A stretch of DNA of 64,000 bases from an uncultured Saprospiraceae bacterium (GTDB lineage Bacteria; Bacteroidota; Bacteroidia; Chitinophagales; Saprospiraceae), in contig CALFWO010000017.1 of the NCBI GenBank assembly GCA_937928045.1, positions 62,001 through 126,000 on the forward strand, given 5' to 3'. The stretch's first letter is position 1; every line of letters begins with the position of its first letter. A program made the position numbers and the translations under genes. The notes under the pieces are model-generated. The model had not been told where the DNA came from. It searched no databases and saw nothing but the letters and a program-made list of their open reading frames with translations. Shown piece after piece: positions 53,841-58,643 of the stretch.

Positions 53841-55655
53841 ATGATGAAAAAGTATTCCATTTCAATTACCACATTTCTTTTGTTGCTCTTTGCAATAAAT
53901 CTTGCTACAGCTCAAAATGTAGGTATTAACGAAGACAATTCTTCTCCAAATTCCAAAGCAATTCTAGACGTTAAGTCAACCACAAAAGGAGTTTTGCTGC
54001 CAAGAATGACGACTAACCAGCGGACAAGTATGTCATTAAATCTAACCAATACGGCGATGGTTGTTTATGATACCGATTTGAAGAATTATTTCTTTTGGGA
54101 CGGAATGGAATGGGAATATTTTGGTGGTAACTACTGGATGTCCAATACCACGGGAATTCATAGTTTTCCTACTTCAAAAAATGTTGGGATTGGAGATGTG
54201 GCATATAGTCTTGCCAAGTTTAGAGTGGTAAGTGATGATAATCGATACGGTATTAGCACAAATGTTAGCAATCTCACCAATAATTCCATTGTCGGTCATT
54301 TCATTCAAATGAGTTCTTCAATTGATGCTACACAAGATGGTCTTTCAATTAATATGTCCGGTACGGGTGGCGTTGGAATTAAAAGAGGTGTGCGATCAAT
54401 CGTTCATCTTGCAGCTGGACAAACACAGGATGCTTTTGGATTGTATGGTCAAGTCAATGGTAACATTGCTACCAACAATAAATACGGTGTTTATGGAACG
54501 ATCTCAGGTTCTGCAGACAATAGTTATGGTGTATATGGAAAAGTTAATGGTGCTAACAATTATGCCATCTATGGTGAAAACTTAAACACCAATGGGTTTG
54601 GCGGATTCTTTGATGGGAAAGTAGCAATTACTAACAATCTTGGATTGGGACAATCTGGTACAAATGATGCCGCCGTCTTAGATATAGATAGCGACAGTCG
54701 GGCAACTGGAATAGATCTTTTTAATGATTATGACGGCAATAATCCTAAGTGGGGGATATATAATATCGTTTCTGGTGAAGGTACAGGTAATCACTATGGT
54801 ACCTTTAGTAGAGTATTCATGAATGCCAACGCTACCTTGGCAGGTTTTGGAACTTTTACAGAGATAGTTGATAACGGTCCAGCGGACACTTATGCACTTT
54901 TTTCAAGGGCAACCGGAGATCCGACGCAGAATAACTGGGCCGGTTATTTCGATGGTCGTGTTCAGATCGTCGGAGGAACAACAGCCACACTTCCAAGAGA
55001 TGGGCACTTGATGTTGGGGGAATCAAATAGCACAAATCTAGTCTTAGATGACACTCGAATCATTGCAAGGAATAATGGCGCTGCTTCCAACCTTTTTCTA
55101 AATCCTTATGTCGGAGATGTTGTAGTTGGTAGTCCAACCAATACCAGTAATTTTAGACTAAATGTTTCTGCCGATAGTGGCCAGGATGCACTTCGAGTTG
55201 GGGTAGGAGTGAATACAAAATTAAAAGTTTTAGCCAATGGAGCTACAGTAATTGGATCAAATGCAACCGCCAATATTCCCGCAAATGGATTGTATGTAAG
55301 TGGTAATGTTCGCTTGGGTTATACTGGTAGCGATGGTAATGCATATAAACTAGCAGTAAATGGTAAAATGTTAGGAGAAGAATTACGAATTGAAGATTCT
55401 AGCAATTGGCCGGACTATGTTTTTGCTGATGATTATCAATTAAAAACATTGGATGAAGTCGAAGCTCACATTAATCAATATTCTCACTTACCGGGAATTC
55501 CATCTGCCAAAGTTGTTGAAGCTGAAGGGATCTTAGTCGGAGATATGCAGAAAAAAATGATGGAGAAAATCGAAGAATTGACTTTGTATTTGATTGAAAT
55601 GAAAAAAGAAAATGAAGCATTGAAATCTCGTGTTGAAATTCTTGAATCTAAATAA
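53841..55655 (+). CDS. Secreted cell-surface protein with C-terminal coiled coil
   Basis: A 604-residue protein. Signal peptide (SITTFLLLLFAINLATAQ) then NVGINEDNSSPNSKAILDVK, KGVLLPRMTTNQRTSMS and a VVYDTDLKNYFFWDGMEWEY segment, the usual N-terminus of a widespread Bacteroidota surface family. The central part is beta-rich with repeated YGVYG phrases (NKYGVYGTISGSADNSYGVY). The end is SHLPGIPSAKVVEAEGI and an amphipathic coiled coil (MMEKIEELTLYLIEMKKENE). The final part resembles tail-fibre-like trimeric proteins. No T9SS sorting domain. Starts ATG-ATG at 53841/53844; the following protease gene starts 14 bp after its stop. Confidence 0.8.
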   Translation: MMKKYSISITTFLLLLFAINLATAQNVGINEDNSSPNSKAILDVKSTTKGVLLPRMTTNQRTSMSLNLTNTAMVVYDTDLKNYFFWDGMEWEYFGGNYWMSNTTGIHSFPTSKNVGIGDVAYSLAKFRVVSDDNRYGISTNVSNLTNNSIVGHFIQMSSSIDATQDGLSINMSGTGGVGIKRGVRSIVHLAAGQTQDAFGLYGQVNGNIATNNKYGVYGTISGSADNSYGVYGKVNGANNYAIYGENLNTNGFGGFFDGKVAITNNLGLGQSGTNDAAVLDIDSDSRATGIDLFNDYDGNNPKWGIYNIVSGEGTGNHYGTFSRVFMNANATLAGFGTFTEIVDNGPADTYALFSRATGDPTQNNWAGYFDGRVQIVGGTTATLPRDGHLMLGESNSTNLVLDDTRIIARNNGAASNLFLNPYVGDVVVGSPTNTSNFRLNVSADSGQDALRVGVGVNTKLKVLANGATVIGSNATANIPANGLYVSGNVRLGYTGSDGNAYKLAVNGKMLGEELRIEDSSNWPDYVFADDYQLKTLDEVEAHINQYSHLPGIPSAKVVEAEGILVGDMQKKMMEKIEELTLYLIEMKKENEALKSRVEILESK

Positions 55656-55669
55656 TTTTTCAAATCAAA

Positions 55670-56821
55670 ATGATCATGAGATTTATATTAATCATTTTAA
55701 TAGTGTTACCTATTCGATTGTTGGCGCAACAAATTAATTCTGCAGAATTGCTGAATGCCATCACACAACCAGATATGGAATGCGGTACTCCTGAGCCCAA
55801 CTACGAAGAGGCATTAAATCGTATAAAAAAACTTCGACCGACTATTGAAGCTCAAAGAAATTCAAGATCTGCTGCTCCAAAATTAATTGTTCGGATGGTC
55901 ATACATAGATTGAGTAGTTCAACAGGGTTAGAAGGCCCTCCAGAAGATACCATATTTGCGGCAGTTGATAAAGCTCGATCAGAATACGCAGCTGGAGACA
56001 TCTGTTTTTCGCTGGATTATATTAATTATGTTAATCAAGATACAGTAATGACAGCTGACGCTTCCAATTACAAAGATTTAGTATCCACCTTGTTTTATCC
56101 TGATCACGGTGATCCGGATAGAATAGATGTGTTTATTTTTCCGCAAGAATGCGGAACTTTTGGAGCATCTCTAGCTATTCCAAATGATCTATTTGCGATG
56201 TCTGAAGATTTGTTGTTGACTAGAGTAACCTTTTCTCATGAAATGGGACATGCTTTGGGACTCTATCACACGCATCAAGGTGATGGAGAATCTTGCGCAT
56301 CAGGCTTAAAGGAAAATATTGATGGATCAAATTGTTCTACCTCGGGAGATTTTATGTGCGATACAAATGCAGATCCAAGACTTTCAATAAATGTCAATAA
56401 CGGTAATGTAAATTCAGCAACTTGTGTTTACACAAATGGTGGAGCGACCGATTGTAATGGAGATTCTCCTTACGTTCCACCAATATCTAACATTATGTCT
56501 TACGGCGTGTTTTGTAGAACAACTTTTTCTAATGATCAATTTGATGCTATGCGTTCAGAATTATTAGTCGGAACAGTAGGGCCATTGGTCAGTGTAGTTG
56601 GCCAACAAACGGTTATACTTACAACAGGAAACGTTACAGGTGGAGAACATCATAGAACAGCGCTGGAAACAATTATTTCAAATTTTGGAGATGTTATTAC
56701 GATCTCAAATAATGCAAAAGTTCATCACACTGCTGGCGAAAATATAATTCTTCAGGAAGGGTATGAAATAAAACCTACTAATGGCAGATATACGGGAGTA
56801 GTAGGTGATCCTTGTAATTGA
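55670..56821 (+). CDS. Secreted zinc metalloprotease (M43/pappalysin-like), copy 1
   Basis: A 383-residue protein with a signal peptide (MRFILIILIVLPIRLLAQ after an in-frame MI). Zinc site: FSHEMGHALGLYHTHQGDG, an HExxHxxGLxH motif (first His at residue 190), and a Met-turn NIMSYG. Conserved cysteines in ENIDGSNCSTSGDFMCDT fit pappalysin-type members. The C-terminal ~90 residues (GTVGPLVS onward to VVGDPCN) form a domain resembling the 3-coathanger stack of secreted Bacteroidota proteins. It lacks a classic T9SS C-terminal domain. It is the first of a tandem pair and lies 14 bp after the surface-protein gene. Confidence 0.85.
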   Translation: MIMRFILIILIVLPIRLLAQQINSAELLNAITQPDMECGTPEPNYEEALNRIKKLRPTIEAQRNSRSAAPKLIVRMVIHRLSSSTGLEGPPEDTIFAAVDKARSEYAAGDICFSLDYINYVNQDTVMTADASNYKDLVSTLFYPDHGDPDRIDVFIFPQECGTFGASLAIPNDLFAMSEDLLLTRVTFSHEMGHALGLYHTHQGDGESCASGLKENIDGSNCSTSGDFMCDTNADPRLSINVNNGNVNSATCVYTNGGATDCNGDSPYVPPISNIMSYGVFCRTTFSNDQFDAMRSELLVGTVGPLVSVVGQQTVILTTGNVTGGEHHRTALETIISNFGDVITISNNAKVHHTAGENIILQEGYEIKPTNGRYTGVVGDPCN

Positions 56822-56928
56822 TGATGAGATATTTTTATCTGAAAAAGAACACCAACTGCATCTATCCATCTTTTTTATTGAAATCTCTTTCGAGTAGTTG
56901 ATTTTTGGAAATACTTAATAAAGAAAAT

Positions 56929-58065
56929 ATGAGAGTGTTGATGTTTTGTTTTTTGTGCTTGCCAATCGGAATGTTTGCGCAGCAAACAAAGACTAATCAG
57001 GTCCAAAATAGTTCTGTAAACGAATTTGTGGAATGTGATACTCCAGTTCCAGATTATTTTGAAGCCCTAAGACGAAAGCAAAAACTTGAACCTGCTATAG
57101 AAGCACAACGAAATGGAAGATCAGCTGCAGCAAAAATTGTGGTTAGATTAGTATTACATAGATTGAGTAGTTCTACTGGAATAGAAGGGCCGACGGATGC
57201 TACAATGATAGCGGCTGTTGAAAAAGTGAGAAGTGAGTATAGTGCCGGAGACATTTGTTTTTCTCTGGACTATATTAATTACATCAACTTAGATACAATT
57301 ATGACCATCACTGGTAATAAATATACTTTCATGATGGACTACTTATATCCAAATTACGGCGATCCTGATAGATTAGACTTTTTTATTTATCCAGATGAAT
57401 TGAATGCAGGTGCTTTTGCAGGAGCCATTGTCTCTGATGTTTTTGGCATGGGAGAAGATCGTTTGGTGCCTACGAGTGTTACAGTTGCTCATGAAATTGG
57501 ACATTGTTTGGGATTGGTACATACTCATGAAGATTATGGCCAATCTTGTCCAAGCGCATTAATTGAAAATATTGATGGATCTAATTGTGCCACTGCCGGA
57601 GATATGATTTGTGATACGCCAGCTGATCCAAATATTGGTCCTCCAAGTAGAAGGGATACTGTCACTTGCGAATTTATTGGAACAACACTTATGGATTGTA
57701 ATGGAGATGCTCCTTATACGCCAATTATGAACAATATTATGTCTTACGCTGGGCCATGTAGAACAGCATTTATCCCTGCCCAATTCGATGCTATGAGAGC
57801 CGAATTATTAACCGGAACTGTTGGTCCTCTAGTAAGTGACATTGCTCCTCAAACACTAATACTAACGACCGGAACAGTAAGCGGAGGTGAAAATCATAGA
57901 ACAGCTCTTGGGACGATCATCTCAAATTTTGGAGATGTCATTACAATCTCGAACAATGCAAAAGTTTATCACACCGCTGGTGAAAATATAATTCTACAAG
58001 AAGGCTATGAAATAAAACCAACCAATGGTCGATACACTGGAGTAGTGGGAGATCCTTGCAATTAG
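56929..58065 (+). CDS. Secreted zinc metalloprotease (M43/pappalysin-like), copy 2
   Basis: A 378-residue paralogue of the previous gene. Signal peptide MRVLMFCFLCLPIGMFAQQ; the ATG at 56929 is chosen over a TTG at 56905. Zinc site VAHEIGHCLGLVHTHEDYG (first His at 188), Met-turn NIMSYA. The catalytic half is clearly diverged from copy 1, but the last 46 residues differ by one (H versus Y), although many codons are different at synonymous sites. This points to strong protein-level constraint. Probably degrades extracellular protein. Confidence 0.85.
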   Translation: MRVLMFCFLCLPIGMFAQQTKTNQVQNSSVNEFVECDTPVPDYFEALRRKQKLEPAIEAQRNGRSAAAKIVVRLVLHRLSSSTGIEGPTDATMIAAVEKVRSEYSAGDICFSLDYINYINLDTIMTITGNKYTFMMDYLYPNYGDPDRLDFFIYPDELNAGAFAGAIVSDVFGMGEDRLVPTSVTVAHEIGHCLGLVHTHEDYGQSCPSALIENIDGSNCATAGDMICDTPADPNIGPPSRRDTVTCEFIGTTLMDCNGDAPYTPIMNNIMSYAGPCRTAFIPAQFDAMRAELLTGTVGPLVSDIAPQTLILTTGTVSGGENHRTALGTIISNFGDVITISNNAKVYHTAGENIILQEGYEIKPTNGRYTGVVGDPCN

Positions 58066-58100: not shown

Positions 58101-58643
58101 TTAATAGAATCTTATCCAGTCAATTTCCAGGGAGAATTCTCCGGGCTGTTTATCACTAAGTATAAAGCCCATTCGAATGACTTTCTCAAACTCTTCTTCA
58201 GAACTTCCTTTTCGAATTACTTCGCCGACTTGTAGCAAATCAAATTCTTTCAAAGGCATTTTGATCGTTGTCCATTCGTTAATTGTAGTTGAAAAATTAA
58301 ATTTGTGATTAGGTCTCCACCAACGACGATCACTAGACAAGGAAAAACCATATTTTCGACCATCTCCTTTGACTCTAATTTCAATGCCTTCGTGAATAGC
58401 TAAATTCATTTTGGCCCATGGACTCCGGTAAGATGCAAAGCCACCATTGTTTTCCAATGATAAATTCCCAGAAAACAATACACTGTTTTTTTGATCAATA
58501 GCTTTGGAAGAAGACCGACCGCCCATAACATCGTCATTGATGATTAACCAGCTGTTTTCACCAAGTAACGGGAAATCAAATTCCAATTTACCTTTTTCAA
58601 TTGAACCAAAACTTATCATAAGAAGAATTATAATTGAATACAT
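58101..58643 (-). CDS. CIA30 family protein
   Basis: A 180-residue protein with a hydrophobic start (MYSIIILLMISFGSIEKGK). The body fits the CIA30 beta-sandwich: WLIINDDVMGGRSSSKAI, FSGNLSLENNGGFASYRS, GIEIRVKGDGRKYGFSL, LSDKQPGEFSLEIDWIRFY. In eukaryotes CIA30 helps complex I assembly; in bacteria the role is unclear. It is convergent with the metalloprotease pair, 35 bp between the stops. Confidence 0.82.
   Translation of the reverse strand: MYSIIILLMISFGSIEKGKLEFDFPLLGENSWLIINDDVMGGRSSSKAIDQKNSVLFSGNLSLENNGGFASYRSPWAKMNLAIHEGIEIRVKGDGRKYGFSLSSDRRWWRPNHKFNFSTTINEWTTIKMPLKEFDLLQVGEVIRKGSSEEEFEKVIRMGFILSDKQPGEFSLEIDWIRFY

Follow-up and report, generated by a model that had tools for sequence, protein, structure and literature searches.

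The closest described systems are C-terminal domains of secreted proteins and the M43 metalloproteases. The type A domain of the type IX secretion system (T9SS; TIGR04183 / PF18962) is a C-terminal domain common to unrelated secreted proteins of the same bacteria as the one studied here. Substrates with a type B C-terminal domain (CTD) are encoded adjacent to a PorP/SprF-like shuttle, and one shuttle serves three substrates, according to the available text of two reports (PMC12618676, PMC9143113); type C CTD signals (cl41395) also exist, as stated in the accessible part of a third (PMC10202324). The GCX_COOH domain (3-coathanger stack) has a library name, NCBIfam NF045639, but no paper on it was found in the open-licence literature, searched partly by titles and the beginnings of abstracts, and the same holds for the LPGIPSA motif and the pairing of fibre and GCX genes described below.

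The window analysed here is a stretch of 64,000 nucleotides from an uncultured Saprospiraceae bacterium, and the 64 kb fall within a single contig of 217,634 bases. A fibre-like secreted protein of 604 aa is encoded by an open reading frame at 53841..55655 (+), and 14 bases separate its stop from the ATG of protease A, an M43 (pappalysin-like) metzincin of 383 aa (Pfam PF05572; 55670..56821, +). Protease B, an M43 metzincin of 378 aa, follows at 56929..58065 (+), with its ATG at 56929 and an alternative TTG start at 56905. The PF05572 scores were 31.8 bits for A and 30.3 bits for B, above the gathering score of 23. Like other M43 proteases, the two proteins have the HExxHxxGxxH zinc-binding motif (HEMGHALGLYH in A, 56237..56269, +; HEIGHCLGLVH in B, 57490..57522, +) and, downstream of it, the Met-turn NIMSY; unlike them, they are small and end in a GCX-like tail. 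By eye, the N-terminus of A resembles a signal peptide and that of B is likewise signal-like. The identity between A and B was 61.5% over 377 aligned codons, and by sequence the two are tandem duplicates of a predicted exported M43 metalloprotease. With a four-sequence profile (A, B and two homologues), pappalysin-1 and -2 were the best relatives of solved structure, while B as a single query against the sequences of solved structures gave nothing at E<=0.1. AlphaFold models from B plus A, and from B plus A, L081 and L082, had low mean pLDDT values of 31.8 and 32.3, respectively. No gene for a PorP/SprF-like barrel lies beside A and B; the upstream neighbour is the fibre gene and the downstream one, on the other strand, encodes a CIA30 domain. 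This small, probably exported protein (58101-58643, -), just 3' of B, matched CIA30 with an E value of 7e-37 and also weakly matched a domain for surface glycan binding.

The original prediction from the DNA was that the last 46 residues of the two proteases differ by one amino acid and that about 19 of the codons differ synonymously. Our counts agree, with 45 of 46 residues identical and 18 synonymous codon differences. The near-identical block is slightly longer than this, comprising 49 of the last 50 residues (56669..56818, +, in A; 57913..58062, +, in B, where it ends ...GDPCN). The best 50-codon window outside this block had 38 identical residues, and none of 20,000 column permutations reached 49 in any 50-codon window. 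Residues differed at 1 of 50 positions in the tail vs 144 of 327 elsewhere (Fisher p 1.3e-10). The separate dN/dS estimates for the two parts, proposed as a check, were unequal: NG86 gave 0.009/1.25 for the tail and 0.37/1.43 for the rest, and the ratio ranged over 0-0.03 and 0.17-0.37, respectively, in bootstraps, with dS missing in 23 of 300 tail replicates. The dS values are close to saturation and therefore rough. These results bear out the idea of strong constraint on the tail at the protein level beside diverged catalytic parts.

Among full-length homologues whose end is comparable, L012 and L013, from the genomes G034 and G003, are the nearest. The identity of A and B to these two proteins was 28-29% in the tail and 37-38% in the body, while L012 and L013 were 62% identical to each other in their tails and 65% in their bodies. 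The frozen tail is thus a property of the A/B pair or of its lineage. No closer orthologues of A and B were found in three genomes of the genus, 396 of the order and 398 of the family, and scans of genome contigs for them returned only two loci, those of L012 and L013.

Two processes could have made the tails so similar, and the synonymous sites bear on both. Recent gene conversion, or an assembly artefact, would fit the base identity of the tails, which is 85% over 50 codons vs about 63% elsewhere. Nevertheless, 21 of the 49 identical residues in the tail use different codons, and the window lies inside one contig. We consider this explanation highly improbable, and recent gene conversion is rejected on the codon differences. 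The earlier denial of recent conversion thus holds, but it does not extend to an old event. At fourfold sites, A and B differed equally often in the tail (14/22) and in the rest (48/74), but transversions affected a smaller share of these sites in the tail (5/22) than in the rest (39/74; p 0.016). Transitions accounted for 9 of the 14 fourfold differences in the tail vs 9 of 48 in the rest (p 0.002). Twofold sites showed no difference (4/19 vs 18/69, p 0.77). The fourfold-transversion test was post hoc, with 22 tail sites and small counts. Because of the fewer transversions and more transitions at these sites, the tail looks less saturated than the rest, as if it derived from a younger common ancestor.

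A comparison set was prepared from 80 regions of seven genomes, picked among the GCX matches listed, with 82 domains. In total, 126 pairs with homologous bodies were scored among the GCX proteins of the seven genomes together with A, B, L012 and L013. Among these pairs, tail identity reached 90% in 3 of 46 within a genome and in none of 80 between genomes, where the highest value was 0.69. In the two pairs other than A/B with tail identity of at least 0.9, fourfold transversions were 2/20 in the tail vs 52/119 in the rest (p 0.005) and 4/18 vs 74/158 (p 0.08). This deficit was absent in four hand-picked within-genome pairs with less similar tails. Because the deficit occurs in the tails of A/B and of two comparable pairs, the data, with their small counts, point to an old conversion of the 3' ends followed by strong purifying selection. 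It is unlikely, in our estimation, that constraint alone explains the tails, that is, that they were never converted and were kept by their own fold or ligand, the excess of transitions being due to chance or codon bias. The total synonymous difference is the same in both parts (21/49 in the tail and 80/178 elsewhere, p 0.87), and so is the equal share of differing fourfold sites, as constraint alone would have it; on the other hand, the lower number of fourfold transversions in the tail, with the same direction in the two comparable pairs, speaks for conversion, and the nearest homologues from other genera, L012 and L013, have no such frozen tail.

The identity of the tail was examined by profile searches. 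NF045639 matched both tails with 16.4 bits each, below the cut-off of 26, and the match spanned only profile positions 12-36 of 49; in a genome search with this model the two tails scored 19.2 and 18.6 bits. The stronger signals came from L012 (22.2 bits, positions 3-49 of 49) and L013 (24.1 bits, positions 1-49 of 49), both also below the cut-off. With a profile of 21 tails taken from NF045639 matches in other genomes, A scored 17.2 and B 16.3 bits, while the best of 2000 shuffled tails scored 5.5 bits. A profile of 25 tails, three of which had been found through their similarity to B, gave 23.6 and 22.5 bits against 5.3 bits for the best of 1000 shuffles, and hhalign gave a probability of 95% for the tail against GCX in a set that includes the same three tails. 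In the genome of the window, one protein scored above the NF045639 cut-off, within an open frame of 2483 aa on another contig, and A and B came next. The GCX-like core matches lie at 56699-56803 in A and 57943-58047 in B. A cysteine next to the C-terminus, which we took as a criterion from the name of the model, is present in the ...GDPCN end of both proteins. On the profile scores, the shuffles, hhalign and the matches of L012 and L013 to the same model, the tail is called GCX-like but divergent, and because it scores below the cut-off we do not file it as a member of the family. The last ~50-70 residues of A and B are thus predicted to form a divergent GCX-type domain with a near-terminal cysteine. 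The tails share with GCX_COOH the C-terminal place, the core AGxxIxLxxG(F/Y)E(V/I), the near-terminal cysteine and the occurrence on proteins that bacteria of this family secrete, and differ from it by the low and partial match and, by eye, by a core in which Y replaces F and the turn (PTNG) is longer. A search of solved structures with the GCX profile gave weak matches only, the best with an E value of 0.1. A search of the genome for more proteins with a tail-like end had also been proposed. A genome search with the last 80 residues of B returned A, B and one weak match of 36 residues (E 0.2) only, so that the exact sequence occurs on no other protein of this genome, but the kind of module is found on many secreted proteins of the family.

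Known sorting signals were then compared with the tail. Neither the type A domain nor the type B domain (CHU_C, PF13585) matched A or B at E<=1, and the identity of the tail with either of these known T9SS signals is therefore rejected. The genome of the window encodes at least 150 type A domains, this being the number scored out of 364 candidates. In 11 of its regions, we compared the last 50 aligned residues with the body in homologous pairs from regions with neighbouring type A proteins, and in all five pairs, one of which perhaps has no type A ends, the ends were less conserved than the bodies. Neighbouring paralogues of L091, L092, L099 and L100, which are regions with type A sorting ends, diverge faster in their ends than in their bodies. 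Because this is the opposite of the A/B tail, a simple sorting tag fits less well. Within the original proposal of a sorting, anchoring or binding module, anchoring or binding is the better description.

It is still conceivable, although we regard it as rather doubtful, that the tail is an export signal, namely another C-terminal signal of the T9SS in addition to types A, B and C, with the fibre as a co-transported neighbour or assembly factor. By eye the N-termini of both proteases look signal-like, and both lack type A and type B signals in a genome rich in type A domains. Among 50 GCX proteins encoded next to fibre genes, described below as cassettes, the distance from GCX to the stop is at most 23 aa in 29 and 99-138 aa in 21, and a type A domain is present in 19, as if GCX and type A were interchangeable. 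Against this, many proteins carry both GCX and type A, and a machine-read tag is unlikely to freeze 49 of 50 residues when the ends were the less conserved parts in 5/5 pairs from the type A regions. Because both domains co-occur in many proteins, GCX is not merely an alternative to type A. Replacement of type A signals by GCX on a genome-wide scale is likewise rejected, since all 16 genomes tested, including those rich in GCX, have between 63 and at least 150 type A matches. With respect to the type A domain, the difference of our system is thus its absence from A and B and its presence in only a part of the cassette proteins. Type B substrates offer a parallel in arrangement: in the available text of the two reports (PMC12618676, PMC9143113), substrate and partner genes are adjacent, a C-terminal domain sets targeting or anchoring, and one partner may serve several substrates. 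However, the partner there is a downstream outer-membrane barrel, whereas here the putative partner is an upstream fibre-like protein, and many of the cargoes are hydrolases.

The fibre-like protein matched no family of Pfam or NCBIfam at E<=1, and we found no family model for it. No Pfam family was common to six relatives and no NCBIfam family to 12 aligned members; six NCBIfam families were each matched by a single member. Its C-terminal ~104 aa (55341..55652, +) contain conserved columns in an alignment of 12 sequences, namely a WPDYVF...HLPGIPSA...KIEELTLY block followed by a heptad-like end, probably a coiled coil (by eye). The reading as a phage tail fibre was set aside: one homologue weakly matched PHROG tail fibre families (E 1.7e-6), the fibre of the window had one weak PHROG match of unknown function and a third homologue had none. 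The C-terminus was found in 73 of 150 family genomes at E<=1e-8.

In G034 and G003, a homologue of the fibre gene immediately precedes the M43-GCX gene, and such homologues also lie directly upstream of related M43 genes in five further loci. Matches to B were found in 14 family genomes, its own included, and neighbourhoods were viewed for nine of these and one other locus. The upstream gene was visible in eight of these ten B-like loci; it was a fibre homologue in seven (L104, L105, L197, L198, L199, L200 and L202, of which L197-L199 belong to one genus) and not in one (L195). In L196 and L201 the contig ends and the upstream gene is outside the data.

To see the pairing from the side of the fibre, forty regions were chosen by the fibre alone, giving 40 clusters from 39 regions. 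In 36 of the 40 clusters, GCX is encoded by the gene that follows on the strand. Over all regions examined, to which those of G003, G034 and the genome of the window were added, the next gene carried GCX in 50 of 59 clusters vs 7 of 241 other genes there; the 59 include the cassette of the window and two loci to which the protease had first led, and three of the seven belong to double cassettes, where they are the second GCX gene. Twenty-six genomes contributed the 50 cassettes. The next open frame, measured from stop to stop and not from a start codon, was separated from the fibre frame by a median of 4 bases in 49 cases. In 150 genomes, the same as in the fibre search as far as they were listed, GCX was found at E<=1e-5 in 80; both were present in 59 genomes, GCX only in 21, the fibre only in 14 and neither in 56 (odds ratio 11, p 3e-11, both ignoring kinship). 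By synteny, A and B are the second and third genes of the proposed cassette composed of a fibre and GCX enzymes, in which the fibre gene is the first.

In nine of the 59 clusters, GCX was not called in the gene that follows on the strand (L206, L207, L211, L217, L218, L232, L236, L239 and L251). Five of the nine were read again. By eye, degenerate GCX-like stretches were visible in the next gene in L217, L232 and L239, a strong GCX in the gene after next in L239, and a GCX-like stretch in the third gene in L236; these cases are outside the counts. In L251 the next gene is on the other strand. In L218, on another contig of the genome of the window (C20:66500-86400), a very long frame with an internal GCX is followed by two fibre-like genes on the same strand, which is the reverse of the usual order. 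The long frame contains what we take to be Rhs-like repeats.

The cargo of the cassettes is diverse. Among the 50 GCX proteins, Sortilin-Vps10 (propeller) was matched in 14, subtilase in 7, reprolysin-like in 7, M23 in 7 and M43 in 4, and single matches were obtained to C10, M4, astacin, amidase, beta-lactamase and pectate-lyase-like families, in a tally from 25 of the 27 families listed in which the metalloprotease models overlap. NF045639 was matched at E<=0.001 in 47 of the 50. The near-fixed pairing of fibre and GCX genes suggests a common mode of surface mounting for these enzymes.

The explanation that we prefer, to which we would assign a probability of about 0.45, is that duplicate M43 proteases with GCX-type tails, homogenized by an old conversion and kept by selection, belong to a fibre cassette in which GCX serves for surface mounting. 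The exported protease would be held at the cell surface by the GCX domain, on or beside the fibre encoded by the first gene. After duplication, an old conversion of the 3' end, to which the transversion deficit points, would have reset both tails, which strong purifying selection has kept since while synonymous sites drifted. Sharing of one fibre by two proteases would account for the likeness of both tails in this organism, while the tails of homologues in other genera differ. We hold more tentatively, as a possibility only, the extended view that this is an undescribed two-part surface system of Saprospiraceae, composed of a fibre whose C-terminal domain has no name yet, together with one or two exported proteins whose GCX plugs into the fibre. 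GCX would then act as a docking module, and the near-identity of the A/B tails would be the footprint of one fibre shared by two enzymes. Many of the exported partners in such a system would be hydrolases (peptidases, peptidoglycan hydrolases) or beta-propellers. Were it true, type B substrates with SprF would be joined by a second example of a C-terminal domain whose partner is encoded in the neighbouring gene. The near-fixed gene pair gives GCX and the fibre a testable function, and surface mounting would offer a possible route for retaining secreted enzymes at the surface without, or besides, the known type IX anchors.

Co-evolution of the two partners was examined across the cassettes. Over 50 cassettes, the similarity of fibre C-termini did not correlate with that of the GCX domains (rho -0.07; a value as high came from 845 of 999 permutations), nor did it within genomes (rho -0.07, 433 of 999), and for the rest of the fibre, over 49 cassettes, rho was 0.07 (16 of 199 as high). 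Because this test was negative, docking on the fibre is something that we only infer. In two G003 cassettes with double GCX, the partner domains were 0.54 and 0.64 alike, vs a maximum of 0.47 to the other G003 cassettes examined; the GCX domains of A and B are 0.97 alike, and their genome has no other cassette for comparison. This would favour a shared fibre, but the similarity within a cassette may merely reflect tandem duplication. In a G003 cassette (L209, 4200-8646, -), a single fibre gene accompanies two GCX proteins whose GCX domains have the unusual stretch FLAD..NGSVFLA in common.

The role of the fibre can also be judged from the two other pairs whose tails are nearly identical. For the pair of G149, region L086 contains no fibre gene. 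For the pair of G003, none of the 16 fibre matches of this genome is on its contig, and region L084, which ends at the first GCX gene, shows none. The tail identity therefore does not need a shared fibre. GCX is abundant and the fibre scarce in some genera, with at least 42 GCX and no fibre in G072 and at least 42 and one in G050, and GCX must therefore also act without the fibre. Over G050, G072, G108 and G149, GCX is expanded to at least 42 per genome with 0 to 7 fibre genes. Repeated neighbourhoods were seen in L086 (1-13501) and L211, where two further gene families, which by resemblance we take to be DUF1800- and DUF1501-like, adjoin GCX or fibre genes.
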